From: Patiria pectinifera
Lineage: Eukaryota; Echinodermata; Asteroidea; Valvatida; Asterinidae
Length of the DNA: 64,000 nucleotides
Assembly (NCBI GenBank): GCA_029964075.1
Contig: CM057134.1
Location: 21,678,905-21,742,904, forward strand
Direction of reading: 5' to 3'
Shown: in pieces, positions 1,990-51,385 of the stretch
Layout of the letters: each line of letters starts with the position of its first letter
How positions within the stretch are numbered: position 1 is the stretch's first letter
Position numbers and translations under genes: made by a program
The notes under the pieces: model-generated
Databases searched by the model: none
What the model was told of the DNA's origin: nothing
The model's input: the letters and a program-made list of their open reading frames with translations, nothing else

Positions 1990-2085
1990 ATGTAATGAAT
2001 GGTTATGAGTGCAATGGTAAGAATAATTTCACCTGGGGTGACAGATGGAATATTCCATTCCACGAGACGAAGCCGAGGACATTCA
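1990..2085. repeat. Half copy of a palindromic MITE-like repeat
   Basis: The stretch containing GTGCAATGGTAAGAATAATT, then GGTGACAG and a TATTCCATTCCACGAG-like end, matches the left arm of the complete palindrome at 5229-5391. The right arm is missing here. Just downstream, 2088-2145 carries two direct copies of an AACCTTCA(A/G)TTATCAAAG motif. Confidence 0.55.
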
Positions 2086-2239
2086 AAACCTTCAGTTATC
2101 AAAGTTTTCAGTTAACATCAGAACCTTCAATTATCAAAGTTTACATCGCAGTGATTTAATTTTAATTCTAACACAGTAAGTTGCAACCATTTGTCTTTTT
2201 GAGATATTGGCACGATACACAATGTATAACAAAACCATT

Positions 2240-2353
2240 ATTGTTGACTGCTGTGATGTGGGATATGCCGTTTTTAATACCCTAGGGGCGCATAGCCGAG
2301 GCGCCCCTCGGGTGTTAAAAACGTCACTTTCCCACATCACAACAGTCAACAAT
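2240..2353. repeat. Long hairpin (inverted repeat)
   Basis: Left arm ATTGTTGACTGCTGTGATGT and onward pairs with the right arm ending ACATCACAACAGTCAACAAT. The arms are about 50 bases with a few mismatches, and the loop is near CATAGCCGAG. It lies upstream of the GPCR gene and is probably the remnant of a palindromic mobile element. Confidence 0.7.
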
Positions 2354-2413
2354 TGTTAAATGTATCAGAGCAATCAGAGCTGTGTGAGAGCTCAACTTTG
2401 TGCCCGTGCAATC

Positions 2414-2451
2414 ATGGAAGTTCTATTTACGTTGGAATAGAACTTCCATTT
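2414..2451. repeat. Short perfect hairpin
   Basis: TGGAAGTTCTATT and AATAGAACTTCCA form a 13-bp stem separated by a short loop. No function can be assigned. It sits about 460 bases upstream of the GPCR start codon. Confidence 0.6.
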
Positions 2452-2915
2452 TTGCGGTGCAGCCGTGCCGTGCGTTGGGACGGATAATGCAATGATACGT
2501 GCTCAACGACTTGCCAATCAGACGACTATGATTTATTCACTGGCGTTGTATAATATTTTCTACCGATCATAGTCTTTCACATGCATTATTATGGGTTTTT
2601 TCCAATAGCTAAAGGTCTAACATATCTGTTTGTAATTCAGCATACTAAAACTCGTTGAAAGCACCCAATAATTTGTCATAGGGCTTGTTGAGTCGGAAAA
2701 GACATGTCAAACTATTATGTAAGTGAGCATGCTTACACTCATGAGGTAATTATTTAAAGCTCAATTTAAAATGTTTTCATGATTGAATTTATAACATTTG
2801 CAGGTGACACTTTGCATGCAGAAATCGCAAGCTACGCTGGAGAAATAAAAACGAGTCAACCTCATCTGAATAATATGGCAAAACATTCTGGTCGTGATAT
2901 CTCGGCGTGACGGTT

Positions 2916-5900
2916 ATGGCGAATTTGAATGTTACATCTGAAGACGTGGGAATCGACGGGCCGGCTGCTGGAGCGAGTCTGGCCGTCATTTCTGCCGTGT
3001 CGCTCGCCGTCAACCTGACCCTTCTTGTCATCATCGGAAAGAGGCAGTCTGGAATCTTGAAGACTGCCGAGAGACTCCTGACACTCTACTGTTGTCTCGA
3101 GGCAACTTATGCTGCGGTGCCGGCCATGTTGTCATCAGTCAGCTACCTGGGCCAATGGCGCGTAAATGCCAACGAAGTGATCTGCGATTTCCACGGCTGG
3201 GCCGCCTGTGCTGCAAAATGCTCATGTGCTTTCATCACGACGGTTTTGCTATTGTCTTGCTATCTCGAGCAAAGACAATCCCTAGTTTACAGGACACGAA
3301 TGAGGTTGTTTTATGCGGCAGTTTTCGGAGTTGTAGTTGTTTGCCTAATTGCAGCTGTCCCCATTATGGGCGGTCTTAAGATGGCGTCCTTCGAGCCATC
3401 GGGAAGTTACTGTCATTTCGATTACCGACAGACGATCGGCTTTTTACGAGGTTTTTGCATCTCGCTTGTTTTAGCTGGGTATATTCTGCTGCAGACAACA
3501 CTGTTTTGTTGCGTGTCCATCTTGTGCGATAGGAGACGTAATACAGGCCGAGATTTGGAACGAGGGATCAGAAAATCTAGTCATGGATTTAATCCTGAAA
3601 CAAGAGGGCGTAAGTCACAGGCGTCACGAAGTCAGCCAGGACGGGGAGGTTTGAATGATGGAAATGGTGTCGTGCCTCGGAATCTTAGACAACAAGATAA
3701 AGGCAGCCAAGAAAGTGAAACGTTTACAACTACAGTGCTTGTAATGGTGACAGTGCTTTGGTTATGCTACCTACCTTTTTTGGTAAGTAGGCCTATCCAT
3801 AAGTGCGGTGCTTCGAGTGTACCTTTTAGTGTGATTGAACACAAGCATACACATTAATCCGGGACAAAGATATACTGACTCTGGGAACCTTACCCTCACA
3901 CTGGAAAACTAAAGGTTTACTTTTAGGGGCCGTGTCACAACGAGGCAAAGTACAGGCGACTATTGTCCTGCACTTGCCTAGAAAAAATCGAGGGGCCAAC
4001 TTTCAGGAATTTCCATAAAGTGTCAGGAAATAATCAAAGAGTTCTTTATGCTTATAATGCATTATTGCCTCCAAGTTAAGTTGCGTGTGACAATAATGTG
4101 AGTTGGCCCAAACGGTCCACTGGATAGCAATTCGCGTAAATTCTCGTTACCAGGAGAAACTAAAATATGCTTTGGAATCAAGTGTCTTGTGGTGGGCAAT
4201 TCCTCGCGGGGCCCTACACAGTTCCTGATTTTTTTTAGTTATATATAGGCTATTTTCCTTTACAATTCATCGATTCTAATAACCAGATTCGTCCAGCAAA
4301 ATTGATTTAGTGCACTTCCAATGTTTGATTTTGTGCTTTTCCATATCATTTCAAATTTAAGTTCAGGCATATCAAAGGCATAGTTCATCATTTGTAATCT
4401 GTGCATTATGTTCGTTTGAAGCAACAAAAGTGCTCAAAGTGTCAAAAAGGGTGCTTGACAACAAACCGATGAAGTTTTAGCTCTTTTAGAGTTTAGTGAA
4501 TGTTGTATATTTCGAGAAAAAATATTCTAGGATCTTGATTTCAAATCAAAAGTTGCTGAGTCATGTTTTGAATTGGGTCCGAATTAAGCGTCCGACACAC
4601 GTACTCATCCAGCTGATTGCAGCTACGTCACGCACTGAACCGCACGCTTCGCCGAACTTAAAACGAACTAACGCACATTTCTAAGGATGTGTCTTTATTA
4701 TCTTAAAACAAGTATGCTTTTCAGCAATAATTAGGCCTACGTCAGTTACTTTTTGGATATCTGCAAATGATGGACTGTAGTTTTAAATCCACGAGCATAC
4801 GTATTTATTCGTCGAGCGTCCAGGGGTAGTCGAATTTGTTTCGTCTGTACGCCAAACAGTGTTATTCAGAAAACAAAATCGTGTTATGTCACATTATACA
4901 ACGCCTGAACAAATCCCCGTCATCTGATTGGTGAATTGTAGATCACGTGACATATTATTATTCGGTATAATGCACGGTGCGACTATGCGTTATACCCATG
5001 TGTTGTACCGTTTCACTTTGCGCTTGTTCCATGACGCGGTATTTGCGTGCAAAATGCATGCTGGTGTGCGCGTTCAGCGTAGCGTGTATTGTTCCAAAGA
5101 GCCAGCGCTACAGCGTTGGGTTCAAACATTTTCGTGAAGGGGTAGTTCAACATCTTTAAAATCAAAATAAATTGTAGTTTATAATTTATCAATCAAATGA
5201 CGAGAATTTATTCAGGTGTTGTATAAAACAAATAACGAATGTTTTACGTTCGTGCGATGGAAAGAATAATTTCATTCGGTGACAGATTGAATGTTCTATT
5301 CCACTCGGCTTCGCCTCGTGGAATAGAACATTCAATCTGTCACCTCATGAAATTATTCTTACCATCGCACTCACAAACATTCTTTATTTGTATACTATTA
5401 ACTCCTAACATTTTGTTCAATTTCGGGGTTTGTACTGATATTAGCAGTACAAGGCAAACAGGTCGATTATAAGAATAATTTCCACTTTTTTTATTTCCTT
5501 GTTTTATGAACACTTATCCTTTGGTAACTGTTCTCTGCATACCTACTTGGTCTGATAGAATCATGCGAATGAATGAGCCGAATTGTGCTCGAGGACACAA
5601 GGAAAATGCGTTAGCACACATACTAATTTACTTAAGAGTTTCAAATTACTGGTTGACATGAGACGAAATTGATCTCTGAATGCTGTCATTCGGCAACAGC
5701 TCAGACGAATTCAGTCTATATTGACGAATATTTTTGACCAGGCACTTTTAACTAGGTTGTCCAAAATTTGAAATTTAATGATAGATTACGAAATTGATTT
5801 ACTAAAAGTATGTGCAATTCTTCTCCAATTTGAATAATAACTGGAATGAAAAAAATGTTTTAAAAAAGCCGGGAAAACTTATAAAAACATTTTTTTAAAC

Positions 5901-8900
5901 CCATAATTTCACCATGGCGATGAGCGCTAAAAGATTGTGTAAGCAAATTTCACGACTGTAGAACTAAGGATATACTTTGAGCATTGAGGTGAGGGCCCAA
6001 TTCCATGGACCTGTTGTGCACATTGTGCCAAGTACTGAAACAACATACAACTTACGGGCCATTAGCGGGTTGTATATTGTTTGTGGCCAGGTCACGGCTT
6101 TATTCTGCTTAACACATAACATAATGGAGAGCAATATTTTCAGGCAGCGTCCTGGGATTATGCGGTTCTTATGTACCGTGTCAGTGACGTATTCTGGCAG
6201 GCTAATGACCTTAAGCATAATAATTACATGTATTTCCAAGGTCTTGGCTTGCGTGCCTCCTGACAAATGACGATCCCGACAAGTGACTTATATCGATTCA
6301 ATGTTTAAAAGGCCAACCTCTCAGACGCTTCATAATCAACAGCTGCTCTACTCTTTTGCCAGAAAACATGCAAAATCGATAAACTCTCTAAACTCTTCGA
6401 TTCTTGTAGCCGTCATAATGAACAGAACGGGCATATGAGAACAAAACATTGTCTAGGGGTGTTGTGGGCCTATGGATTGACAGTACACTGCTCGAAAGCT
6501 TTAGCTGCTGATTTGGCAGTGGAGTTGCAAGGATTTTTTTCATTGGGGTAGATTAGGTGTTTGAAGTTTGGGATTTTTCGGGGTGGGGGCGTGGCTGTGT
6601 TGTTTAGTCAATATAGACTACATGTCTTATAGAGCTTAAAGGGAATGTATATCATTGGCTTTTGCTGTAATTTTCAGAAATGAACTATTTGAGAGGTTAG
6701 TATAATAGATCAAATATTGTTACACTGACATTTTTGACAAGTTTTGTGTTCGAAAAGGTTGGAAAAACCAAGAAAAACAAAAATGTTTAAGTAGTCTGGT
6801 TCCCTGACTCCACAAAAGATAAAATGGATCAATTTATAGATGATGGAAAATTGTAAGGCAAGGGAACCAGTCTAGCTGGCCTACACCCGTTCAAGAACAT
6901 GTAACCAATAGCGAACACAATTTTGACTGAAAAAATGGTAAATTTGGAGCAGTAGTTGAAAAATAGTAACGTTTTTCTAACGCTGGTCGGCCGACCGCCA
7001 TTGGAAATGTTTTTTTTAAATACCATTTTCTTGAAAATGACTTCACAACAGGTGCCATAATTTTACAAGATGCTTGAGACTGTCATTTACCAACATCCTA
7101 GTAAGGTATTTCGTAAAAACTTGGTAGTTTTATTTTTCGATGTTTGCAAATGTTGTATATTCCCTTTAAGCAATACACCGAGAAAAGATAGGCCTGTTTC
7201 AGGAAAATAAATGTGGTATTTTTCAATATTACTTTTTTATTAGAATAAATATAACCAAAGAGACAATTATCTGTATAAACCACTTTGTTTTATCCGTACA
7301 TTGTATTTAGGTTCAACTGCGATTTAAAAAAAAAAAGTTATCTCGATCCACAAAGTGCATTAACATCCACGATTGCATTAAGGGCTATTTTGGTTTTTTT
7401 GTATTTTGATGGACATATCAAGCTAGAGATCGTTACAGATATTAATCAAAGCTTCTCTCATGAAATTTAAAACAAAACGATCTCGTTCCCAGATTGTGGT
7501 CGTTCTGGCGCAAACTGGCATCCCAATTCTTCCCCCTGTGGACTTCGCCGTGGTGCGGGTGTTGTCAGTAGAGGGCGCCTTGAACCCTATTCTCATCCTG
7601 GTGACTTTCCCGCCCTATCGCCAGAGAGCGCTGGAGATTCTGACTTTACCTACTCGGGGGTGCGTCGGAAGAAGATCCAGAAATCAAAGGCATGGACGTA
7701 AGTGGAGTTCCGTTTATTGTATTCACAAAGAGCTTTTTATAACCATTACCATGCTCAGCCGCCCACGCTATATGCCCTAAAATATATATAGAAAGTTGCG
7801 GGATAAGTAAAAATGACTGAGAAGCTCCTTTACAGTTTCGATCTCTCATTTCTCAAGTCGGTAAAATTTGTTTTATAATCTCTGAAATCTCCTTCATCCT
7901 TTTGCATAAAAAAACTGGGTGGAAGACGGTGGAAAACTTAAAAACTGACGGTGGAAGACCAGTAGGGCACACCCACCTCTTAGCGTGGTAGACAAAAGTT
8001 GGCGGGTAAACCAGTCCCATGGTTGTCCGCATTTAGTTTTGTTCAACATTGCAGATGGACACAAATCGCGAGAAAAATGCCAATGTGATATAAGAATTGT
8101 TTGGTATTATGGTAAATAGTTTTCAATATACAAAGAATAATTTTTAAAAGCCAATGATGTTTATAAATGAGCGATGAAAACTGGGTTATCAACACGCTAT
8201 ATTGGCAACCAAGTCGTTTGCAGCCATTTGCGTACCCCGATGATATGATTCTAGAACATTTCAGAACATCTAAAAGATTTATAATTTCTACACTTTTCAG
8301 TATATGTTCCAGACTCAAAGCGTATCGGCCTGTCCGAGTCTGTGGTCTATGATGATTCTACTCCGCTGGATTCAAATGCTTGGTATCTGGTCAAACCAAA
8401 TAGGTATGTCAAGTATCGGTAATCCGTGTGGCGTTCAGATGCTTGTGGTCTTTCTTAGGTTATCAGATTTCTGAAAGCATCAACTAAAATGTCTCATGGA
8501 CTACGCAAATGTGTGCAGCCAGATTTCACAGACCGTTTTTTTAAATCTAGTTGCTCTTTTTGGTATTGGGTCTCGCTTTCGGAAATGGCAATTAGCAAAA
8601 AAGATTTAAAACAACACAACAGAAATCCTTTGTTTGAACTTTTTAAGGGCTAATGCAAGTTCTGGGGGAAATCATTTTAAAACCTGCCAAACCAAACTGC
8701 TACATGTATTTGGAGTTAAAGCCCAAAAATAAATAATGGATGGATACCACAAAAATGTCCCAATGAGACCGACTGTGGAGGCACATATCTCTACAATACC
8801 TCACCAACAAACACAGAATCAGTCACAGGAATCCTGGCTTTTTTCCCCCCAGATCATTCGCCAGATCCTATAGCACAGGTGACCTCGCATCCCATGTTAC

Positions 8901-11900
8901 TGGCCATGGTAACACAGGTGGATTGCATCCCCATGGTGCCAGAGACACACGTTACCAGTCATCTCTCCGATCCATCCTCCAGCCATCTAAATCATCTGAG
9001 ATGCTCTCCCAGTCACAGGAGAAGCGTCGACGCAGTATCCACTGGGAGGATGGTGTTAACATGGGTCGGGAGGTCACACATAGGTCAAAGGTCATCTTGG
9101 TTCAGCAAGGCCCAGACAAAGCGAAGACTGGATTTGATTCCGTGTGTTATATTGATGACGAGGAGGCATCCTACAGCAGTGAAACAGGGAGTTCATATAG
9201 CGATGAGTGCACTAGTGGTAAGCAACCAAGAGGAGCTCAGACTGATTCAGACTTTTCATCAAAATGTTTAAACTGTCCTTTATGTGCTGCACAATTCTTC
9301 TAAGCCCACAGGTTCATTGTCAGTTTCCATGACAGCAAATGGCAATATATTAAACTTAGGTAATCACGTCCATCTTATCTCCTTGCATTGGCACCAATTG
9401 TCTCTTTTTGTGCACTGGCTTCCATTTCGAAATAAAGCTGGTATGGTTCAACTTGTTTGTCTCACTTTCGTTTGTTTTACTGAATAGCACAATGTTAAGT
9501 AGCTTCACAAAACAAGGTAGCAATTGCCATTAAGTTACAATCAGTGAACTTGGCCAACCTAAGAAACCATCACATCCCGAGTCCAAACCTCTAAATGACA
9601 CATATTGATGCATGTTATTTTTTCTCAGAGTCTGACCATGCTGCCGACTACCGCTGCAGTAAATCAGCTCCACCTGTTTACATCATTAATGGGAGAGCCT
9701 ATTACACTCCAGCAACATCAATACAAGGAACTATTTACTGCCAATGTGAACAGTGTGAACGTAGAATGGAGCACCAGACTAATGCAGACAGAGACCCTTC
9801 TTCCCTAGGGGAGGGGAAAGGCATGTTGGCAACTACTCGGGTCTATGGTAGGGCTGAGCAGCGGGCAGGCACAGCTCCATATGAAAGCTCAACTACCACA
9901 ACCGATGGGCAAGAAGTATCAAGTCCAAAGAGCAAGAAACCAAGGGTGCTCAGGAAACAAGTGGAGAGGCTAAGAAGAATAAGGCAACACGAGCTTGAGA
10001 CTATTCAGCACAAAGGTCTGATTGTGAGGACTCTGGATGAAAATGCTCCTGGTTATTATCGAGAGATATTAATGGATTTACGAGATTTACCAAACAAGAA
10101 TCAAACGACTCACACAGACTATCCTTATAATGAGGAACTGGATAGGGACAGATTGCAAAACTATGGTGAATCATGCAATGAACATGATATCAGAGATGAT
10201 GTTCACATGATCCAAAATCAGCAATATGAAGACCAAACACGCAGTGTTACCAACAGGCAAGAGCAATCTAGTTATAATATCAGCATTGGTGCCGTACAAC
10301 AGGTCAATGATGATGACCTGAACAACAGGATCAAGGTTCAGAAACAATTCAGAAATGTTCTGACAGTTAATGAATTCCCAGAAATGATTGCTCAAACTGA
10401 CGTGGATCAAGCAACAACTCCCTTGCATCTTCCAAGAGAGGGTCACAATAGCTCTTCAAACATAATGGACAGCCAAGCTAATCATGAGAGGTTCAATCCA
10501 TCTTGGAGTATCCGTCCATTAAATGTGGAGACAAGACAAGATGATCCACAATTAAGTGTCACCTCAGAGCATCTTGGCAGAGGCATGGAATCACTGAAGC
10601 ATCTTGAGATGCACTGCGAGCATCTGCTAGAGCAATCCCTGTCTTTCAGAAACAACCCAGAGAATGAAAGCAGCACTGCACGTCAGGCAGTGATAAGCAA
10701 GGAGCAAGTACAGGCAAAAACCAGTCCTATGCAGTTGCCTACTGAAGAATCGGTGCCTAACAAGATATTTGGAATAAATACGGCGGAGAGAATGCAGGAG
10801 GTACAGCAACCTACAGATACAATGATACCTCAAGAGGTTCTAGGGAGAGGTACAATGAAGGTGACAAATGAAAAGCAGGAAATAAGACAGGAATCGATAC
10901 CCAGTGAGGTATGGGTGACAAGTAAAACACAGATGCCTCAAAAGATGCAAAGTGAGTTACCAGTGACAAGTGAGGTACGGGTGCCCCATGAGATACCGAG
11001 GACAAAAACAGAACAGGAGACAAGTCAAGTACAGCAGACCACAGATCAAACACTGATGTTTAACGAGGTAAAGGTGACTGGTGAAGCAAAGATGCAGTAC
11101 ACGGTGCTTGAGAACGACAGATTTGAGGTTCAAAACACAGAACAGGTAACACTAAGAGAAATGCCTCCAGAGGTTCATAGTGGCACTCGGGTAAATCACA
11201 AGAGACAGAAACCTAGCGAGGTGGCAACATCTAGTGAGACACAGATGATCTCTCAACAAGTTCAAATGCATGCAGCCTGTGATCAAACTGCTGACATGAA
11301 ATTGGATGAAAGCCCAGGTGTCTACAATAGCCGCAACACTTTAAAGATTTCATCCCAAGATGTACGAGCTGAACAGAGTTATCAGAGTAGGGTAGGTGAG
11401 GACATAGATAAACCTAGCTCTCTCATGGGTCAAGCAGCAATGGTCAACAATGTACCAATGGAGAAGGACATAGTCTTTCATGGGTTGAAGTCCGAGGATC
11501 CTCAAGTCATAAATCTTCTTTTTCAGAAGGTTATCATGAAACCCGAAAATCAAGGCAGAGAGGTACCTCTCAGGGAAGTTAATGTAGTTAGGAGACCAGG
11601 CGATGCAAAGGTTGATGAGATAAGACAAGAATCAGACACCATCTTACACATCGACACTATAAGCAGAAGGCAAGAACAAGAGATAAGCAAAGGTGATGAA
11701 CAGCCTATCAAAAATCAGACAACACTTGAACAGGGTCAGCAGAGACAGGGTGATCAGAATAACAGTCAAGGTCAGAATGGTGAGGACTCGCCAACAAGCC
11801 ATGACATTCCCTACCGGCATTTCTTGAGAAGCATCAATGGAACCCCTACCAAGAATGAACAGCATGCCATTCCATCCATCCATGTCACTCCCTCTGACAA

Positions 11901-12786
11901 TAATGATGTGGTCTGGGCATCAGAGAGTGATGATGCTGTGGAATCGGATAGTTCAGTTGAGTCACTGTTCTGCAAACCACCCATGCTTAAACTGGGGAGT
12001 AAGAGACGCAAAGGAAAGAATAATCTCATGATACCTTACTGGCTGAATACACAATCCCATACTACAGACACCTGTTATTCTGAAATGGGTAGCCATTCAG
12101 ATATCAGATCAGCTATCAACACTGATGGAAGTAATAGAAGTAGTGACACAACTGGACAGGAAAACGCACACCGTCAAAGTGCAGTTGAGGGCCAATTAGA
12201 TTCAACAGAGATCTTGACTAACAGTCAAATGGATGTAAATGCTGGGATAAGTGTGAGATATTTTGAAATCAAAGAGCCTCCCAAATCAAATGAAAAACTT
12301 CAACTCTTGCAACAAGAAGCAAAGTCAAATGGACACGTGAACACAAATGAACACATGAATAATACACAGCAAGTATCCAAGACTGAAAATGAAACCACAC
12401 TACAAATTAATACAAAACAGGAAATCTCCCAAGGAGAAACTGTAGGATTTGACGTAAATCCCAACAGGCTAAGACAGGGTATTAAGAGTACATCAAAGAA
12501 TTTTAAACAAGACAACATGAATAACAACACCTTCAATTCCAGTCAAGATGAGACTCTAGGGGTGTCCTTACAGACGCCAACCTGCAGTCAAGGCAGACGG
12601 CGGTCCCAGTCAATAGACAGTGCGACCATAATTGAAGGTTTTACTTCCAAGGGGCTACGTGGTCTTGGTGGAAGTGACTGCAATGAGGACTTTCAGGATA
12701 CTATGGCGACGAGAAGAGCGTCTTTGCCCCAGATTATGTTGAGAGGAAATCCAAAGAAAGTGTACATAAAGAGTGAAATTCTTTGA
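2916..12786 (+). CDS. Prostanoid-receptor-like GPCR with giant C-terminal tail
   Basis: Exons: 2916-3782, 7493-7697, 8301-8403, 8853-9217 and 9629-12786. Junctions are GT-AG and the frame is kept, giving about 1,565 aa. Exon 1 (289 aa) holds an N-glycosylation site (NVT), TM1 with the conserved Asn, TM2-TM5 and TM6 (LCYLPFL). Exon 2 holds TM7 (RVLSVEGALNPILIL). Prostanoid features are an Arg nine residues before the TM7 Asn, a second extracellular loop PSGSYCHFD like the family PGTWCF motif, and an intron at the end of TM6. Exons 3-5 add about 1,200 aa of Gln/Glu/Ser/Thr-rich, apparently disordered cytoplasmic tail. Imperfect short repeats (EVxVTxxxQMP type) lie near residues 900-1060. Exon 3 has a second in-frame acceptor at 8313. 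The start is the first ATG after an in-frame TGA at 2895. Ligand is unknown; GPCR assignment is firm, prostanoid subfamily likely. Confidence 0.82.
4372..4786 (-). mobile_element. TTAA-flanked MITE, family A copy 1
   Basis: Lies in GPCR intron 1. The right end ATGATGGACTGTAGTTTTAA and a decayed left end CAAAGGCATAGTTCATCATT are inverted. The interior (GTCAGTTACTTTTTGGATAT, TTTCAAATCAAAAGTTGCTG) matches, in reverse, the copies at 18804, 25504 and 55859. No coding capacity. TTAA flanks suggest a piggyBac-like transposase source, which is inference. Confidence 0.75.
5229..5391. repeat. Near-perfect 160-bp palindrome
   Basis: Arms of about 75 bases pair around a TCGGCTTCGCCTC centre. The innermost stem is GAATGTTCTATTCCAC / GTGGAATAGAACATTC. 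Outer parts CAAATAACGAATG and CATTCTTTATTTG also pair. It is in GPCR intron 1, and a left-arm-only relative is at 1990-2085, so this is a dispersed repeat. Confidence 0.8.
6789..6882. repeat. Short inverted-repeat element (GGTTCCCT ends)
   Basis: Starts TAGTCTGGTTCCCTGACTCC and ends AAGGGAACCAGTCTAGCTGG, giving inverted ends around about 60 unrelated bases. A similar pair of ends occurs at 43248-43340. It is probably a very small MITE in GPCR intron 1. Confidence 0.45.
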
Positions 12787-14831
12787 AGAAAAACCCAAAG
12801 GTTACAGAGTATGAAAATGACAGTTCATTTCGTTAATGAGACATGAAAAAAATCTTGTCACAATAAGCACACCTTAGGATCAGGGTTGATGTTGATTCAA
12901 GTTTCAAGTTCATACTATGAGCCATTTAGAAGAAAAAAGTCGCAGAGATTTATTGTCCAGAAAAAAAAGTAAGCAAGATAGCAAGAAAAAGTGTTGAACA
13001 GTTTTAAACACAGGTCAAGCCAGATATCTTTTTTTTTTAATTATATGCACATGTAATTATGTATGCGATGCACACAATTTTTGTTTTTACTGTGATCTTA
13101 GAAAAGGTTTCAAGATTGCATTATGAACCTTTCATTTCAGTATTCAGATTAAAGTTTACAATAAACGTGACAATATGTACTGCAACTGAAGGTATGTCAT
13201 TTATTGTTTTTTAATCTGTCATAACTGTTCTATTGTCCAAGCACTCACAAAGCATTGAGTTTTAATTAAAAATTCCATGAAGAATTAAAAAACTGCTCAC
13301 GAAATTGTGAGCCTTGTTACTCTAAAGTATTGACTTTATCTATGTACATGTACATAATTTCAAAGCAGTGCCATTTTCTAAACGCCATTCAAAAAACAAA
13401 GTTCACATGTTTTAATGTGATACATTTATAATGCCGCAAATCTGAAAGAAAAAACACAATTTCAGACAAGATATCAAGTAAAAAGTCTGCAATCCATCTT
13501 TTTGGATAAAACTGACTACATTGTAATTCATTCTGTCTATACAATCAATTAGATACCACACTCTGTTAAATACATTTACACTGTAAAATACATTTCTATA
13601 TACAGAGTTCAACTTTACATGTTTCATCACTCGTTGTTTTTGTTTCGTTTTCTTCATCTGTTTTCAATTTGATTTCCTCAAAGCCACATTAGATCATTTG
13701 CAATTACCTGAGTAAATACCGACCTACACGTATAATGACAGAAACCTTGCTCAAAGTGAAGATAGGACTGGTATCAAACATTCTGTGAAATTATTCCGCC
13801 TGAAATGGTATCTTTTGGAAGAAAACTCACATTGAAGGTGTTTTCACAATAGGATTAGGGCATTTCTACCCGTGTTAGCAACAGAATCCAGTGACGAGAC
13901 CAAAACAATTGTGCATTTATACGTTTTGTCCATTTTCTCAAAATGCATAGTATCCACTGAGCTGAAACTTCCACTGGTTTAATACCGTAGTTGTTATGCA
14001 TCCTTTTCAAAGTTCGGAGCAATTTGTTGCTTCAAACAAAAACTGAATAAAATGTAAATGATCCTTTAACTTCAGGTGGTTTGTAGATGCTTTTAAAGGG
14101 TGCATGTATGGAAATAATGGGGTGTTTGAAGACTGTAGGCATACATGTAATTGGGGCCATGTCCTCATCAATGAGACACATTCAAGGAAATGCAGTGTAA
14201 ATAACGGGCTGTTCGTTGGAAAATCACAAAATCACATTCAATTACATCACGACAAGTTCATCTGCACACATATGATTGTTCACTGCATATCACTGTGGCA
14301 CACATCTGTTGAAAATTGAATGGGGCACAATGGACTGAATTCTGCAAACTTGGTTCCCATGTGAGTATTGAGTACAAATTGTTGAGTTTCTGTGTATTCA
14401 GGTCAACTGCAACATTGTCCTCATTTCTCATGAATAATCAAAACGAAATAGAATCATTTATCAAAATTTGACCAGATTCCCACAAGAAGTCTACATCTTA
14501 AAAAAAAAATTGTTATTACTTACTTATTTCCAAATGAGTACGAGCATTATCATCTCTCCATTTTGAGCCATTATCATAAGACATGTTGAGGAATATGGAT
14601 AATTTGTATGCAAACAAAATTGACAAGTGACAAACACAGAGTTTCCACTGTGCAAGATTTGTTTAAGAGCCTGTGGCTCAAAAGAAGCTCTGGTGACTTC
14701 CAATTCATTTTGCACGGTTGGGTTACATACTCGCCATCAACTGCTTGAAGGGCAAAGGAAGATTTATTTGTAAACAGCAGAACCTCTTAATAGTCCTGTA
14801 TTCCTCGTTTTGACAGATCCTTCACTAAACA
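12787..14831. other. 3' UTR of the GPCR gene and intergenic DNA
   Basis: The first about 380 bases are probably the 3' UTR, ending near the AATAAA at 13160. The rest, AT-rich up to the transposon at 14832, shows no supported exon on either strand. Confidence 0.5.
13160..13165 (+). terminator. Candidate polyadenylation signal, GPCR gene
   Basis: A canonical AATAAA lies 374 bases after the GPCR stop codon, followed by T/G-rich sequence. This is a position-based inference. Confidence 0.45.
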
Positions 14832-15622: not shown

Positions 15623-18600
15623 TCAATCCATCTGCCACTCCTTGAAGAAGTCATTTCCTTTGTCATCAACAACAATAAATGCTGGGAAGTCTTCTACTTC
15701 CACCCTCCACACAGCCTCCATGCCCAGCTCTGGATACTCCAGCACCTCCACTTTCTTGATGCAGTTCTGAGCTAGGATAGCCGCTGGACCGCCGATGGAA
15801 CCCAAGTAGAAGCCACCATGTGTCTTGCATGCCTTGGTCACCTGAAGAGAATGAGCCGAAAAATGAGTTTCTAAGATTCTGATCAGTGTTGCCACAAGGC
15901 CTGGTGTTATATCCCTCAATAATTGGGGAGGCTGAAATTATCTTTTGAAAGAAAGAAAAACATCTTTGTTAACCTGTTCTCAGGAAATTGCACATTCATT
16001 AGATATACTTCTCTGCTCATTTAATAAATTTAATGGCTCCATCTCGCCACCTACACAGGAGAGGTGGCTTCACTTGTTGCCCACTTTGGGGCAATCAACA
16101 CTCTAACAACTGGTGAAAATAAAAACACACATACAAACGTACGTTCACGTTACAGACGTAGTGTGGACATTCCTTTGTTTACGAAAAACCTGTGAAAAAC
16201 TACTTTTACTCAAACTGTGAGAACTCTTTCAACCCAATTTTTTTTTATGATTCCCTTTAGTGTTGCTCTTCATTTTTCCACCAATAAACCTAACCCAAAA
16301 ATGCCTCTAAACCTGTTTTCCAGAGAGGGAAGTCCACACTTTGTTCAGAGGTCCACACAGTGATTGTAATGCTTGTACCCACATACTTGTTCCATTGTTA
16401 TGGGGACTTCACACGAGTTGTCCCATGGTACTATGGGGACCGAAGACGTTATGGGGACAGCAGAAAGTCTCCACAACTCGGTCCTAATTTGCCTAACAAT
16501 AAAGAATTTCCCCAGAACGCAGTGACGGCCGCCCACCCATGTTTGTTTATGGTGTAAATCGAGGATTTCCTCTTGTTCCTCATCATCCATCTTTTGTTGG
16601 ACAACTCCCATTGGTTTGGTACACGTTTTCTAATCGAGGACGTCCTCATTTTGACTCCTGTCCTCAATTACACAAGGATGTTTCACATGTGTGTCCTTGA
16701 TTTACACCATAAACAATGCCACACATACAGTCTTTGCGCTTTACAGTGTAGCTGTGCTGACACCACTAAACCCTTGTAATTCATACAGTTGTATTTCATA
16801 CATGTACATATTCCATTTGCTGCTGGAAACGTTGGATTTGATTCTGGACATAATTTGTCTTTTGGATAGAAACTGCATCCAGATATGTTGGAGTTGCCCA
16901 GCCTTCTACAGATCAATCCAGCATGCTTTTAATTCTATCATGAAGGCCCCTTCAACTGGGAAAGATTGTGCTTGCTACCGTTTAGATAATCCATCACAAG
17001 GTAGTTGCTTTGTACAATAGCGTGCACAATGGTTTCCCCATTGAAGGGGCCTTGGATTTGCCTACATGCACATACCTGCTTACTCCTGTTCCCCTTGGCT
17101 AGCATGACCATAGATCCACCAGCTGCTTGGAAGGCATCTACATACGAGTCCATCCTACCAGCTGTGGTCGGACCAAAGGAACCTGAAGCATAACCCTGAT
17201 ACAGCAATTAAACAACAGAATTGTTACATTTTCTGTGCTCACAGGAACAGCATCACAGGAAACTAACTTGATTCCAGCCACACCTCTAAAATAAAGCATG
17301 GTTATCTGCTAGAAGTCATGTGTGAACATAACTAACATTTCCTAGAAAGGCAATAGGCTCATGACAACATAATAATGAGCTCTTTTGCTATGGTATCTAC
17401 AAAAATTGTGCAACTTTGCAAACTCAAGGCAACTTGCAATCTGCATCAAAGCAATGGTGTGCCTATATGTGCAAACCACTGAACATGCTGAACAACGGTT
17501 CATAACCACGAGGTAATACAGAGTACAGAGGTACTATCTAAGGCTGCATCCGAATCAGTTGTCTAGAGCTAGGTCGAGGTCTGCGCCCATTGAAAATTCG
17601 CGGGGACGCGCTGACAATAGCTCTGGAAGCCCGTTTCAGACACGGCCTAAGCCTTAATTTTACCTCTTGCATCTTCATGGTTGGAATTCTGCCGGATGCA
17701 TGCTGTGAATGGACTTATTGTCAGTTACGACCACAATGGGCATCTTCAAAATTAAACTTCTCAGATGAGGTTTTCCTCCTACACAGGACATTTCGTGACT
17801 GTCTTTTTTTCAAGTTGTCCATCAATGCTACACTGCCGTACAGTGATTGATTTGGCTCAGTACCACCAAGCACCGTTGTACGTTAATTCCAACCTCCCCC
17901 AACTCCATCAAAATCCATCCCCCCATTTTGGTGGATTTGGGGGGCCTTGGTTCTGCAGGCCTGATTTGACTAAATATTGATGGAGTATGATGGACTTGGG
18001 CCTGGAGGCCTAAAGCAAAGCATGCATTGGAAGCAGTGCGACTGATGGATTTTGACAGACCTGGTCCAGTACTTAGTTAAAGACAGTAGGGAGTGTGGGT
18101 TAATCAGAAGGCAGGTCCTCAGTAGCAAGTGAACAATGACAAGTATGTTGTGACAGTTTATTTGAAGAGTTTCTCTTGATTTATAAAAGGAATGACTTTT
18201 GATTGAATGGCGATGATGAATGACTTTGGATTCATCTCATTTATCCAAGACAAGTTGTAGGAAACTTCCCCTCATAAGCTGATATGAGTGCATTACTGTC
18301 AGCAATACCTGAGCACTGCGATGAATGAAACAGTATTGCTCAAAACTCCCTGGAGTAAATGCAGAGTTCTTGTCAGTTATCAGGCAAAGTTTTACCATAA
18401 CTTTTGCAGGATTTTTATTGAGATGGCTCCTTACGGACACTTGTGATAATTTGATTGGCGACTCTCCCATGAAGAAAATAACAAATCACAAAATAATGTA
18501 CCTCTGGTGTCTTAGCAGGGCCTGCATAATAGACTGGATGATCCTTGATGTACTGAGGCAAACCTTCCCCGCTATCAAGCCTCTCCTGTAGCTTAGCATG

Positions 18601-21600
18601 AGCAATATCCCGAGCCACTACTAGCGTTCCTGACAGACTGAGGCGAGTCTTGATTGGGTAGGCTGACAGAGCCTGACGGATCTGACTCATCGGCTGATTC
18701 AGATCAACCTGGTCATAAGCCAAGGAAATCATGTCAAAAAACAAACGAATAACACATCTTTAGTCACAAAAAGTCTATTTTATTTGCAGTCAGCAATGGA
18801 TACTTAAAGCTATAGTCCATCATTTGCAGCCATCCGAAAAAGTAACTGGCGTATTATTGTGGAAAAACATACTTGGTTGAAAGATAGTAAGGGGATTAAA
18901 CTCCCTGTGAAATTATTCTTTCTGGCAAGCTATCATTTTGAAGTAATCAACGAAAGAAGGACTTTCCAACGGTGCGTCTTAAGACGCACCGTAGGAAAAT
19001 TTAGATTAGTAGTTCGTTTCGTTATTCGGCGCAGCGCGCGCAAGCATTAGCACGACGCACACGCGTGCGCAGTTGCTTTAATTCGTACTAATGTTGGACT
19101 ATATCTTTAAAGTACATTAACATAGATGTATTATCCATTTTCTCTCTCGTTCTAGCCCTTTGCTGGGCCAAGTTCACAAACATACCGAAAACAGCAAGAG
19201 GGAATAGGGCGGAGTGAAGGGGATATATATCAAACCCAACTATTGCAGTTTACTATTGTAGAAATGAAATAAATAAGGAACATGGATCTGTAGAAGCCAT
19301 CATCAGAGCTTTGTATCACAAGGATAGGTGGGAATACACCTCTTGTTCATTTGCTGCTCATTTTTAAAATATGAAAAGCCAAAGGGATGATTTCCACGCA
19401 AACATATTTCAGCGTTATTATGCTTTCCATCATCCTGTGTTTAAAAAGGACACAAAACTTGTTTTTAACATTTTGCATAATTTGTTGTGACTTCTAATAT
19501 TTCAGCCTTCTACATATTTTTAATTTATTTTTAAAACTGCAAAGCAAGTTTAGGTAGGCCTTCAATATGACATTATAACTGACACTGCTGTACTTCGCTT
19601 TTAATTACAATTAATTTTTATCAAATGTTACGACATTTGCGCTCATGTTTGAAAATGAAAATCACTGCAAATACATGCATGTATAATGAGCATTGAAAGG
19701 ACATTCATGTGACCCACCTTCACAAAATAAGCAGGGCAAGGTGTTTATTACAATTTGAAGGCACAGGCATGTACAACATGTACAATGTACATGTACATAT
19801 ATGACGATGGAACAGTTCTTGTTAATGTATGGAGTTGTTGCAGAAAATCAAATCATAAAGTTGCTGCCATCAGCATTCATGGACAATCATGACAATAGAG
19901 AAAGATACGAATTCTGTGAAGCCATTCCAGAAGCAAATTCAGTCAAAAATGAGATGGCAGAAAGTACCGGTACTTTGGGACACTTTCATTCAATTTATGT
20001 AAGACATGTGAGGTGCAGTCTTTGACAAATTATGCACAAGTTAACAACTTCAGTTTGGATGTTTATAAATTAATTGTTACTACTCTAAATCATTGTAATT
20101 TGATTTCAAACATTGACTTTAGAGTTCAATTGAAAGCAACACCTAACTGAAGCCATCAGTTCTACCGGTAGATGTTTTGACCTTAAATGTACATGTAGGC
20201 TGGTAGCGCCCCACCCTTTAGGTAAACCTTTGAACCTGCTATTATTATTAAAAGTTGTTGGTGAACATGTAACCAATATACTCAAGAGTTCAAATACTGT
20301 GTATTTAAACTTTTAAGGATTGAGGTGATGGGTTTCAAGTCTATTTCTGAAGTATTCCTGTGTTCGTGAATTATGTGTTTTGGGTTGTTTTCGTTTTTCT
20401 TTTGTTATCATTAATTAGCAGGCTTCTATCTTTATCTCAATAGTTTCTTGGGTATAATTATTTATGCCAGGTCTGCATATTGTTGATTTCACATTCAGTT
20501 ACACATTTAAGCAATTTGTTTCACTTGTATAATTAGTGTAAATTCACATTTTGTTCATGCTATAATTGAGTAAACCATTTGTCCTTCCGTTACCGTCCTT
20601 CCGTTACCAAATTGTAATCTGCTTAAAACGTTGTAATTATATAACCGAAACACTTAAAGTCAAATGAAAGGCGGTATAGTATAGATAAAGCTTCAGGGAT
20701 TCCATTTCCTACCTTTAAAATATAATTGCCCCATAAAATTCACAGAGTTTTTGCAAAACGCATGTTAGTTGGAAAACCCTTGTCCGTTTTACCGTCCTTC
20801 CGTTACCGACCTCATTAATATTCATAATTCATAAACGGGAGGCATTCATGCCCCCCAAAAGTGTGGAAAATGAAAGTAGCATTATAGCAATACAATTGTG
20901 ACATTTGTTTGCTGTAACTATGAACAGTGTGTGTGATACACACATTTGAAATTTTGTTTAATGAGTGAAAACGTCCTTCCGTTACCGTGGAATTGCCCAC
21001 TATTGAAAAGGTCACAGCATTCCAATAGCTGGGCCAATCAGGAGGCAGTAATGAAAATTGGGAAAATCAAACAGCCAATCACGTGCCAGATCATTTCAAT
21101 AACATAAGATGGTCTAGTACCTTGACTACATCTGCTTCAAGATCTCCTGGTTGTATCTCAGGCAGGTACTTCCCAGGGTCTGTCTCCAACTGTTCTAGGA
21201 ATACTCCCTCCTCATTGATTTTGCCAAGAATCTGCAGGTTAAAAAAAAGCATTTATGTTTTCTTTGTACGGTAGACCAAGGTTGGACACCAAATGTCCAA
21301 GTTATCAAATTTGCTTGGCATTCACGTCAGGTATAAAATGATCCCTTTGTTTAGTGGCTGCCTCTTTTGACCATTGTTAAAGTGTAGTTGCATTAACAAA
21401 CAACACGTGGAGTCGCCAAACGTCTCCATTTATCTTTTCAATTCTGTAAGCAGAACTTCACCAAGTATGACTTTGAACACGTGCGACTATTGGATCATGT
21501 AATCAAACTGTTTTTGAGCTGTGGGGGGCTTTTCCCTTCTATTCCTTGGGAAAATAATAGCCATTTGTCGCTCTTGTCTGTTGGCATTTCCAACAACAAT

Positions 21601-45660: not shown

Positions 45661-48600
45661 TCAAAGTATAACACATGCCTTGGACGTTGCTTGTCCCTTC
45701 ATCACCTTCTGTTGTACACCATTGTCCCCTGCACCCCTCTCCACCATTGGGTGATGGGTGCCCGAAAAGTCAAAGTGGTTTTCCCGAGTGTCCGTGTTTG
45801 GCGGACTCTTAGGCGACACCCTACCCATCCGTCCCAACCCCGATGGGCCAACCAGGTCCTGGATACCCTTCGGTTGCCCCTCGGTCTTGGACCCGTGGCT
45901 GCTGCTGAGCGTCCCGTTCCCGGAGTCAGTGTCGGTGGAGGAAGTGCCAGCGGACAAGGCTACGGAGCGGTCGTCGTCATCACTGGAGCCGTGATCCTCT
46001 TGGGACGACAGGCCGCTCTCACTCACTTCGCTGCCTGAATCACTGGAAGTGTCGGAGTCCGAGTCGGAAGATGTTGCATCGTCTGAGGATGATTGTGAGT
46101 CTTCCGAGTCAGACTCTGAATACTCAGAGGAGGATCCGGAGTAGTCCGATGACGACCCAGATGATGAACTGTAGTCACTATTGCTGGAAATAAAAATTAA
46201 CAATACAACTATCATTTTCAATATAACTATCACTTTATGCAACCGTACGAGGCAATAATGTGACCTTCCGGCACAAAACCAGTTACTTGGACCAATTTTT
46301 GAAAACTAGAATTTTTGGGCTTAAGTGAAATGAAAGGCCATTGAATAAGTTTGATATGAGATAAGACCAAATCTGACGGAGTTGTACATGTATTCTCAGT
46401 GCCCAATTTTCGGGCCACAGAAAGTTTTTTTTTTTTTTAATCGAGAAATTTGTCGTTAAACTTCTTAGGCTATTTACAAATTACGATGTAACTTGGCTTA
46501 CATGCATTTAAGTGAAATATATTCATTAATCAAACTTTTAATTAATGTCTAAATCTGAATTTCGCAAGACTTTGCTGAACAATGTATAGGCTGTATCTCA
46601 AAATGTGGCCGTGGGAGTTCCGACTGGTTTTGTGTTGGGGGTCACAGACATGTATAGCCAAATGGCTTCAGGTAATCTCCAAAAAAGGATTTGTATTAAG
46701 AAGGAATTTCCATAAACGCTCTGGGAAAATGTTTATCTCGTTCTGTTCCACCTTCAGGCCTTTCAGGGCAGTCGGTTTCCTCAAAGTTTACTGTGAAAAC
46801 TTGCTGTCTGTGACCATAGTGACTTGCCCCTTGAAGCTTGAAGTAGACGGACCGTCATAAATCATACAAGGACGTTGCATCTAAAGAGTTCGATTTTTAA
46901 GTCTCTGACAACTCTGTTTACTGTGACAAATTACCGCCATATATGAAAACATTCCTTGTGTTTCAATTCCCTCACGACCAGATTCACAAGGAGATTCTAT
47001 TTAGATCTAACATTAAAACTGAATCCACGCAAGAACTATTTCAATCTTTCAGATTTCTTTAATCCCCCCAGGTACCAAGTGGAGGATTAGAACAAATCAC
47101 GGCCTGGTAACATGGCAACCAAGGATCAGTGTTAACTTGGTGTCAGAACAAACGCCTCGGAAGCTAAAGATAGATGGAGGGACCCTTTGAAGATTTGAAA
47201 GAGGATACCACATAAGTGTTTGCATGCCTCGTTTGTAGATGTTCTCATAACGCTGGAGGGTGATATTGTATGCGGTTTAGAAAACCGTCAAGATTTGCTA
47301 GGCTTCATTGGTGGCCTTCGCATTAATCCCAAAGGACAGTATCGTAGGCTGGTTCCGATTTCATTGAGCTTTTATGAAGCGGTTCAGATTTTCTGAGCAC
47401 GAAAGTTTTGTTCAACGAACCACAGGTATTAGGTATATATAATATTTTGCTATGCTCGCCTTTTCGCCGAACAATCGATTTCCAAAGCCGTATTTAGGCT
47501 AGAACCCTATTCTTGGATTGACCTCGATTTCGATGTGATAATGAGTGAGCGAGCGATGAGTGAGTGAGGGAAACAGGGAAGCTTACAAGTACTTACAAAG
47601 ACGAAACACGTAAAGATGTAAAATGAAAACTTGTTCAGGAATTCTCGTATAAGATGTTTTGGTGACGTTTTCAGATGCAAATCCCGGTAAAAATTGAACC
47701 TGTTCTGTTCTCATACTATATATTGGGAAAGTACGTCCTCGCAACAACCAAAACATTGTTGTGGTTTGTTTACCGTGAAGGAATTCATATAATATTATTT
47801 TGCGCAATTTGTTGGAATTGGGAAAACAGCAGAAAAACCATCAACGATTTTTTTTATGCGCTTACAGTTAGTTATAGGTAATCTCACGAATATTAACTGG
47901 GTGGGAAGTTTATTTCAAATATGCCTCTACTTGCGGTTGCCTCAGTGTTATTTAAATGAGTGTCAGTATTTAACTCCGCAGCGTAAGTATTTTCCATTTC
48001 TCTTTAGTCATTTCTACTCGTATGTTAAGCCTTGTACAAACCTGCTGTAAGAATCCGAATCCTGACTTCCCTGTCGACTTCGGCCACCGGTCATACTACT
48101 CATGGATCCCGCATTGATTGACGATCCTCCTGCACTGCTCCTCCGATGCCCGCTCGCCAAACTCCCCCGCCGGCTCTCTGACGGCCTTGCGGCGTCTTCA
48201 ACCACGGAGAACTGTACTCTAGAGTTCAATCGCTTCACCAGTTGTTTCTCTTTGATCAGGGTCATCTGCTGGTGCATGTCTTGTATCGAGGTGCTGATGG
48301 ATAATCGCCTTAAGTGAGCGTCCAAGGAAGCAGTGCTATTGCCCCTGGCGCGGCTTGACACAGAGCCTACGGATAGCCTCGGAGATGATCCCCTTAATGA
48401 GGATCTTCGCAAGCTGTAGCCTCCTGTCGAGCCGTCTTGAGAGTTTCTTCCTTGAGCCTTTTGAAGTTTTGCCAGGGCTTTCTGGTTCTTGAGTAATGTG
48501 ATGGCATGGTGCATCTCGTGAATGGAGGCAAGGGAAGCTCTCCTAAGCGTAGCCTCGTAGCTTAGATCGTCCCTATCTGCCATGGATCCTTCGAACACAT

Positions 48601-49366
48601 CTCTCGACTTCTCCCCCATGTCAGGAGGAGGGTAGGACTGGTAGGCCGGACCCGATGCCTGATGATACCTCCGAGATGTCGACTGGGGTGGGAAGGACCT
48701 CCGCCCAGACATTGAAGTGTTTCCATCAGCCGATGCCCGGCGAGTGTGTCCCACATACCCGTCCGCGCTATTCCGCCGCCGTGGCTTGGGAGTTTTCCGT
48801 ATTATCACCGCGTCTGATACAGTGGACAGTCGCCTCGGGTTGAAATCCATCAGAGACGAGACAGTCGAGTCGCTTCTTTGCAGACTGACAATGGAAACCC
48901 TACGTCTGGGAGGCTCGTCGTAAGACGATTTCCCCACAAGCGAAGATGAGGATGATCGCCGATTATATAAAGCCGGTGGTGTTTCAGAAGCTGATGAAAA
49001 GGATACCCGTCTTCCAGCCGTTGGAGGATAACTCTGCCTGACTTCTCCTCGGAAGTCATCGCAGACGGCATCCTCCGCGATGGTTGCGAACTCCGAGGCA
49101 ACTGACACCCGGGATATGCTGGAGTCACTCCGCTTCATCGGGCGAGGACGCGGTGGTAGGGGCGCGGGTGATTGAGGCCGAATGGCAGGCATCGTCTCCT
49201 TCCTTGTCACGGTGATACTTTTCCGGCGTTTTCCTCGCTTGTAGCGCACGGGTGCCTCCATGTTTTTATCCTTGGCCCTGTAGCGATCCATGTCACCACT
49301 GAATACAGCTGCAATACCGCCATACGCATCCACGTACACGGGTCCCGAACTTCTCCTTGCGTTCAT
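45661..49366 (-). CDS. Ser/Arg-rich disordered protein with CaaX box
   Basis: Two exons, 49366-48042 and 46183-45661, joined GT-AG in frame, giving about 615 aa. I do not recognise the family. The first 440 aa are basic, Ser/Arg/Pro-rich and carry 13 RRxS motifs, the consensus of PKA and related kinases. Two related segments of about 33 aa form an internal duplication: LRRASLASIHEMHHAITLLK and LRRLSISTSIQDMHQQMTLI, each followed by a Lys/Leu-rich helix. Exon 2 switches to an acidic Ser/Asp/Glu-rich stretch with CK2-like sites. The protein ends KACVIL, a CaaX box whose final Leu predicts geranylgeranylation and therefore membrane attachment. The start is the first ATG of the long frame; an extra 5' exon cannot be excluded. 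Confidence 0.78.
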
Positions 49367-51385
49367 AGTGTGAAAAAATCACTTCAATTTTATATCTTAT
49401 ATCCCATCACAGTTGTCAAAAACCATTACTACTACATTTTCTGATCCGTTCAATCTTGACATTTAATAATTGTCAGTCCGAGGTTACTTCTATCATCAGT
49501 TTACGGCATGCATGGACGAATTAGAAATACATGTAACGCTCTCATACCGTAGCTTGTCCGTCGTGAGGGTGTATTTGCCCCCGTTGTTATGGAGCAACAG
49601 GACCGGTCGATACTTGAAGCCTCATGACTGCCGTGCCAACACATAACGCATGAGGCAAGTAGACTCGCTAATCCCCCAAGTATTGGCAGCCTTTTGTTGT
49701 AGGGGGGCGTCTTGCGGAGAGTGTTGGCAATCAACATGGTATAAGCCAACAGTTGTGTATTTAATCACGGTGACTTGTTTGGCTTAACCCATCCTTTGTA
49801 GGTAAATAGCTAACTAGTTAAAGTACTTATGACGGTAACAGGCGTAAGGTTTATAAGGTTTTAACAAAAACCGCTTTGTAATTAAGCAAATCATTCTTGC
49901 GCCTTTAAAGCCTGATCATACTTCATGCGAATGCGATGCGAATTTGACGTCACGAAGCATTCCCTGCGAAATTCGCCGGAGTTGAAATGTGTTTAACTTT
50001 TGCGAATTCGCAGCGCGAAAACTCCCGCTGTTCACAAACTCGCGTTTGCTTTTGTAGAGAGTATGAACCGGCCTCTAATGTGCTCAGTCACAATGTTGAA
50101 TATGATCTTGTCCTAATTTCTGAACTTCTCCATTTGTTTGAGTGATGGTCTGATAAAGTTTTTTACTTTAGAATTCAAGTTTTCAAAAGCAATGAAAAAA
50201 TATGTTATCACGGTAGAGCGATCCACTCTTTTTAATAGTACTTATATTAAACTAAATTCAAATTCCAACTCTATATACTTAAGATGTTAAGCAAAGTTAA
50301 CACTATAAACTAAACTATCCATGCATTAACCATTCTGTCCGATGGTTCATCAACCACAAAAAAGGAAATCGTTCATTTAAAAAGTGCTCTACATTTTATA
50401 TTCTGAGATACCTGTACTCAGTCTGTAGGCCTACTTACTTTAATTTTTAATGAAAATCAAAGGCTTGATATTTAGTTCTTATCGGACCACATTGAACGAA
50501 ACAAAATATATGAATGGTTAACGTAACTGACATAGTGAGTCAAAAAGACTGGTCACAGTACTGTAAACTCAGTTTTACCACACAATGTGATAACGGTGGC
50601 ATGCATTTAGTCGATCCCTAGAGTTGCTTGTTCTATGGTCGATCTAGGGACAGCCAGTGAGGGAAGTGAGTGAGCCTTGAATGTAAACTCAGTGTGACTA
50701 GGGTTTCTCGTGACAATCGGCCAGACGCAACTAATCCACCTTGACTGAAAGTGAGCTTTATAAACTTAGCGTGAACTTTTATTTACCGCACAGTTTATAA
50801 GGTTGATACATTGAACTGTTTAAAAATGTATTTATACATGAAATAAATCCATCAGTAGCTTATCTTAAAGGTAAATGGATATCCTTTGCAAACATTTTAA
50901 ATGAAACTGTCAACAAATCACGAACTATCCTAATTGATTGTAAGTAAATACAATGTAGGATCGAGCATCCTGTGAAAATCACCGTGTCTATTACGCTCTG
51001 TCATTTGCGAGAATTGACCATCATTTCCTCACGATGCAGGTTAGGACTATTTCGCTTACAACGGAAACCTATGCTTTGCGTCGAGAAAAAAATGAAGATG
51101 TATTTCAGTTTTCTCAAAAAATCGCCAAATTGGTTTTTAATAACCTGCTTCAGATCTGTTTTTAATAACCTACTTCAGATTTATGTTTTGTTGTTCCTTG
51201 AATTGACAAAAACACTTTCTTTTTTGCAAATAGTGTCCATCACCTTGAACCTAAAGGACTGCTGTTAAAATGAAATATAAATATGAACCTCGCCATTTGA
51301 AACTAGAAAAAGGTACAGTTTGACGGTAGACAGATGCGTGGCTATGATGATGCCATCAGTGAAATGTTTTGGATGAAAAGATAAT
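49367..51385. other. Intergenic between CaaX and peroxidase genes
   Basis: This is the upstream side of the CaaX gene and the downstream side of the peroxidase gene, both on the minus strand. It contains a family B MITE at 49906-50078. A minus frame at 49749-49501 (82 codons with a hydrophobic middle) is not supported by any motif or splice model. Confidence 0.45.
49906..50078 (+). mobile_element. TAA-flanked MITE, family B copy 2
   Basis: TAA at both edges, left AGCCTGATCATACTTCATGC and right GAGTATGAACCGGCCTC. The interior GCGAATTTGACGTCACGAAG is shared with the other two copies. No coding capacity. Confidence 0.8.

Follow-up and report, generated by a model that had tools for sequence, protein, structure and literature searches.

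The locus poses two questions: whether a seven-transmembrane (7TM) receptor and the very long open reading frame downstream of it are encoded by a single gene, and how a receptor with such a tail could work. In the 64-kb stretch of Patiria pectinifera DNA analysed here (the window), five exons of 867, 205, 103, 365 and 3158 nt (Table 1) were spliced in silico into 4,698 nt, which encode 1,565 aa and a stop codon in an uninterrupted frame, with introns in phases 0, 1, 2 and 1. A first-pass annotation of this DNA had proposed that the frame is continuous across junctions 7697/8301, 8403/8853 and 9217/9629, into a tail of roughly 1,200 aa that belongs to the receptor. These junctions proved exact, all with GT-AG borders and in a single frame, and the tail, which begins at residue 335, is 1,231 residues long. 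The methionine at 2916 is the first in frame after a stop codon, and a Patiria miniata protein and a shorter relative (P0002), both introduced below, begin with the same three residues. Twelve alternative combinations of splice sites (donor 8403, 8412 or 8418, acceptor 8853 or 8865 and donor 9214 or 9217) also keep the frame open, differing by a few codons in exons 3 and 4; this count set intron 1 at 3786/7494, where 7494 has no AG acceptor, and the final model places it at 3782/7493. An open frame by itself therefore does not settle every boundary of these two exons, and the gapless alignment to P. miniata at the joins agrees with the junctions first noted. Exon 5 holds 1,051 open codons, whereas none of 500 base shuffles gave more than 181, which puts its coding character far beyond chance.

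Table 1. Features of the receptor gene and other observations in the window
Feature	Position	Strand	Borders or basis
Exon 1: start Met, N-terminus, TM1-TM6	2916-3782	+	Donor GTAAGT at 3783
Ser-Cys-Tyr at 3.49-3.51 (codons TCT TGC TAT), usual class A E/D-R-Y site	3255-3263	+	
Exon 2: TM7 (Arg 7.40, NPILI) and start of tail	7493-7697	+	GT-AG borders
Exon 3: proximal tail	8301-8403	+	GT-AG borders
Exon 4: proximal tail, basic site RRRS	8853-9217	+	GT-AG borders
Exon 5: ~1,052 tail residues and stop codon, C-terminal SEIL	9629-12786	+	GT-AG, ORF
Likely 3' untranslated region, with presumed end position	12787-13185	+	AATAAA at 13160 (hexamer scan)
Inverted repeat in intron 1	5252-5370		58-nt arms, 91% complementary, 3 nt apart
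Second inverted pair, near the first	4894-4940 / 5180-5226		83% complementary
Open frame of 114 aa, Fumarase C-terminus	18415-18759	-	PF05683, E 1.3e-23
Open frame of 214 aa, Ser/Asp-rich, low complexity	45661-46305	-	Weak below-cut-off PF21827, E 0.0019
Open frame of 454 aa, Arg/Ser-rich	48014-49378	-	No Pfam match at E 0.01
Animal haem peroxidase exon	54404-55111	-	PF03098, E 1.8e-64
DDE transposase match	60295-60633	-	PF03400, weak, below cut-off, E 0.0036

The inverted repeat at 5252-5370, with a second pair nearby, resembles the remnant of a hairpin-type mobile element.

A search of 5.8 billion proteins, restricted to entries of 0.55-1.75 times the query length that shared words with it (7,382 candidates), returned one match to the full-length window protein, the P. 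miniata protein LOC119732676 (P0001). It is a database prediction, listed as uncharacterized, of 1,566 aa compared to 1,565 in the window, and the two are 95% identical over 100% of their length, end to end. A search by the name LOC119732676 found no paper, and no title among the matches listed concerns the gene. The identity by exon was 283/289, 66/68, 32/34, 119/122 and 984/1052 (exons 1-5), with no alignment gap at any exon join. In total, 79 substitutions separate the proteins, and 78 of these need a single base change from the window codon; the lengths also differ at two sites, by 2 and by 3 residues. The tail accounts for 71 of these substitutions and for both length differences; 71 unselected missense changes would bring about 4.3 nonsense changes. 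LOC119732676 is likely to be the direct orthologue of the window gene. The annotation of the P. pectinifera genome is described as having drawn on P. miniata proteins as well as transcriptome data (PMC10511450), so a matching P. pectinifera model would not be fully independent evidence.

These comparisons bear on the possibility that exon 5 is a separate gene misjoined to a short-tailed receptor, or that the long-tailed version is only an uncommon isoform. The frame is open upstream of the exon 5 acceptor, with an ATG at 9595, a transcript retaining intron 2 would end its frame at 7780, leaving a short tail, and exon 5 itself as well as introns 1, 3 and 4 contain AATAAA hexamers. However, the acceptor at 9629 is in phase with exon 4, the P. 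miniata prediction spans the same join, and exons 3 and 4, which would otherwise have little role, are 94.1% and 97.5% identical to their P. miniata counterparts. A misjoin is unlikely because the P. miniata protein matches end to end without gaps at the joins, and we consider this explanation, in either form, very improbable. That the 7TM core and the tail are one protein, made from one gene by ordinary splicing, appears by contrast highly probable from the reading frame and the annotated orthologue, and the original proposal that the tail is part of the receptor is supported.

Further relatives were sparse. The first-pass annotation had suggested looking for orthologues with the same tail in other echinoderms and hemichordates; the P. 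miniata protein carries it, but our limited protein searches found no other relative of the tail, and Acanthaster and Asterias were not among the matches. When the core of P0001 was used as the query against long proteins (6,844 candidates), only P0001 itself was returned. P0002 was found using residues 1-513 among 7,993 candidates, of which those sharing most words were scored; it is a 324-aa protein from a 2,490-base contig, covers the exon 1 stretch only and stops before TM7. After YLPFL, where exon 1 of the window has its donor, the P0002 sequence seems to continue into an intron. Pattern searches of viral contigs (46 stretches) and of bacterial and archaeal genome contigs (29 stretches) gave none that was confirmed, and a tblastn search for a nearby paralogue within the 64-kb window returned, beyond the gene's own exons, just four matches, with E values of 2 to 9.9.

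On profile evidence, the core is a rhodopsin-type (class A) 7TM protein. Pfam 7tm_1 was the sole family over its cut-off in P0001 (35.4 bits compared to a cut-off of 30.5), and scored 32.2 bits with exon 1 of the window alone and 45.5 bits with P0002. Hydropathy peaks between residues 13 and 330 are compatible with seven predicted segments, although the peaks of TM6 and TM7 overlap. The AlphaFold model of TM1-6 was poor (mean pLDDT 46.7), and a Foldseek search using it was uninformative, with 597 matches at E values up to 10 and none at 0.001. The TM3 cysteine C90 and the ECL2 cysteine C166 are conserved across the alignment of the window protein, P. miniata and P0002, and position 3.50 lies 25 residues past the TM3 cysteine with no gap, as in EP4.

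Our analysis revealed two altered motifs, neither of which featured in the first-pass annotation: E/DRY is without its acidic-Arg pair and NPxxY without its tyrosine. Both losses are relevant to the way in which the receptor could act. Neither of these class A motifs was found in the window protein. At 3.49-3.51 the two Patiria proteins have SCY, and P0002 has Glu-Arg-Tyr (ERY); in TM7 both Patiria proteins carry NPILI in place of NPxxY, with Asn-Pro kept and Tyr lost, and TM6 has LCYLP in the window and LCFLP in P. miniata. E/DRY is usual but not obligatory in class A, some receptors tolerate the replacement of R3.50, and coupling is not abolished in every receptor. As E/DRY is the usual state of the class, the simplest history would be a loss on the way to Patiria. 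In solved complexes, Arg3.50 is described as contacting the alpha5 helix of the G protein and the finger loop of arrestin (PMC7913897), and coupling should weaken or change because this contact would be lost. From the roles of the lost residues, the usual G-protein coupling is probably weak, constitutive or altered.

The ligand class of the core is less clear, and prostanoid kinship is only hinted at by the sequence. Arg 7.40, a hallmark of the prostanoid receptor family, is present and in register with EP4 and IP; Trp occupies this position in D2 and TAAR1. Intron 1 falls within TM6, two residues past the Pro of LCYLP, and the genes of vertebrate prostanoid receptors have a common intron close to this point. 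An ECL2 motif ending in Trp-Cys also marks prostanoid receptors, and here the window protein has SGSYC, compared to PDTWC in EP4 and PGSWC in IP. Unlike prostanoid receptors (EP4, IP and TP), the Patiria protein has NP instead of DP in TM7 and has lost E/DRY. No prostanoid receptor was found among the PDB matches of the Patiria core (0/21 and 0/19), and the best PDB matches of P0002 were the apelin and beta-1 adrenergic receptors. Human EP4, with a chain of 488 aa, has approximately 135 residues past residue 353 (the end of the query), so that the 1,231 residues of the Patiria tail are many times longer, in line with the earlier remark that prostanoid and other class A receptors usually have tails below 200 aa.

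One way to read this core is as a class A receptor of the ordinary kind, coupled to G proteins and possibly prostanoid-like; its tail would be mostly a disordered extension that grew passively and would serve desensitisation and trafficking, as in shorter-tailed receptors. The 7tm_1 match, the two kept cysteines and Arg 7.40 agree with such a receptor, but both Patiria proteins depart from E/DRY as well as from NPxxY. The same replacements, SCY for ERY and NPILI for NPxxY, would also fit a decaying or decoy 7TM protein that binds ligand without signalling, in which the motif losses and a drifting distal tail reflect relaxed constraint. The rates of change along the protein, given below, bear on both of these readings.

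The composition of exon 5 (S 9.2%, Q 9.0%, E 8.7% and T 7.9%) bears out the earlier description of the tail as rich in Gln, Glu, Ser and Thr. No Pfam family was found over its cut-off in the tail, where P0001 gave two sub-threshold matches (E 0.054 and 0.57); the one NCBIfam match was far below threshold and located in the core, and exon 5 gave a single match to the PDB, with an E value of 0.37, which was not useful. All 13 tail stretches tested fell on the disordered side of the charge-hydropathy line. The AlphaFold model of exon 5 had a mean pLDDT of 30.4 and no residue above 70, with just low-confidence helices near residues 619-663 and 830-851, although its input was two sequences, from which a low pLDDT would be expected anyway, and it is weak evidence for disorder. 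Taken together, these predictions suggest that the tail is probably disordered.

The short imperfect repeats that had been described in the tail found only modest support. The best self-alignment of the whole tail scored 65, where 60 shuffles averaged 57.5 and reached at most 83. Residues 880-1070, which were picked after seeing the sequence, scored 62, a value reached by one of 500 shuffles scanned equally, and by 0/200 when the shuffles were scanned more coarsely. Among 26 overlapping 191-residue segments of the tail, just three, between residues 815 and 1085, scored above 40. A tandem-repeat origin of the tail was considered and rejected: low-threshold TRF over positions 2000-14000 reported six short arrays, of which one (3.6 x 8 bases) is in exon 5.

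Comparison with P. miniata revealed an uneven rate of change. Substitutions affect 8 of the 334 core residues (2.4%, leaving 326 identical), 6 of the 268 residues between 335 and 602 (2.2%), 63 of the 888 between 603 and 1490 (7.1%), and 2.7% of residues 1491-1565. The difference between proximal and distal tail gave P = 0.002 by Fisher's test, with borders that were set after seeing the data; the contrast at the slow C-terminal stretch gave P = 0.23 and was not significant. An invariant run as long as the longest seen, 80 residues, was not unusual under uniform placement (P = 0.44). Exon 5 is 93.5% identical overall, and P. miniata is too close to tell strong from mild constraint.

An ordinary class A receptor would fit a core that is nearly identical in the two species and a distal tail that differs about three times more, but the proximal tail is conserved as much as the core; with the altered motifs, this leaves that explanation rather unlikely, though still to be taken seriously. 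The decoy reading would also account for the faster distal tail. However, the core is 97.6% identical to that of P. miniata, with predicted TM1, TM3 and TM5 unchanged, the window frame contains no stop, and the proximal tail is slow, and we regard a decaying or decoy protein as improbable.

The first-pass annotation had further suggested that the tail could be a large scaffold or phosphorylation platform. Our data are consistent with such a role, but Ser/Thr sites were not significantly more conserved than other tail sites (9 of 219 Ser/Thr sites differ, compared to 62 of 1,010 others; P = 0.34) and phosphorylation-code patterns were at expectation rather than enriched (12 compared to 12.3). 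A scan of 16 patterns, with uncorrected counts, gave candidate sites present in both Patiria proteins: RRxS at residues 450, 1503 and 1542 (3 compared to 1.0 expected) and PSIHVT at 1262, which is calcineurin PxIxIT-like (1 compared to 0.1 expected). Both proteins also end in E-I-L, which resembles a class III PDZ ligand.

The joining of core and tail is well supported, and from it we infer a possible mechanism. The 7TM core would sense a ligand, its coupling to G proteins weak or unusual given the altered E/DRY and NPxxY. The slow first 268 residues of the tail, and perhaps its end, might form binding or phosphorylation modules, which would keep partners such as kinases, arrestin, a phosphatase or PDZ proteins membrane-bound and close to the core that senses the ligand. 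The middle part, which changes faster, would mainly be a flexible spacer. That the tail is an output arm holding partners is a tentative proposal, which we place somewhat below an even chance. As a whole, a single receptor with a disordered tail, altered coupling and the tail as its output arm appears to be the best explanation, and its chances are about even.

A bolder version is that a starfish class A lineage dropped canonical coupling and signals chiefly via a disordered scaffold of 1,230 residues, its proximal module constrained as much as the core, as an independent counterpart of GPR179 or Smoothened; we put this forward as speculative and, on balance, unlikely. Should the reading of altered coupling and an output arm hold, the Patiria protein would combine, within class A, an eroded G-protein switch with a tail over three times as long as its core, in a receptor retained in P. 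miniata and in the species of the window. It would then offer a direct test of the idea that a core of the rhodopsin type can work through a scaffold tail with no G protein involved. The timing of the loss of coupling in evolution can be asked because the relative P0002 retains ERY. Patiria has long been used for studies of eggs and larvae.

Known receptors provide two working analogies. Smoothened, a member of the Frizzled class, is the first, as a disordered tail that is a direct output. It is described as a non-canonical GPCR whose disordered tail binds the catalytic subunit of PKA and inhibits PKA directly (PMC13186710). In contrast to this PKA-inhibiting tail, the PKA pseudosubstrate pattern RR.[AG][ILVFM] had no match in the 1,231 residues of the Patiria tail, and the Patiria core matches the class A profile. 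In GPR158 and GPR179 the recruitment of RGS complexes is done by the tail, which in GPR179 is very long. The pair is presented as 7TM orphan receptors that recruit these complexes and so regulate other GPCRs (PMC3581496), and the likeness, as far as that account goes, is to a 7TM orphan recruiting signalling partners. GPR158 and GPR179 are, however, class C receptors, whereas the Patiria core is assigned to class A, 7tm_1 alone being over the Pfam cut-off. Judged by its sequence, the Patiria receptor belongs to neither the GPR158/GPR179 nor the Smoothened group.
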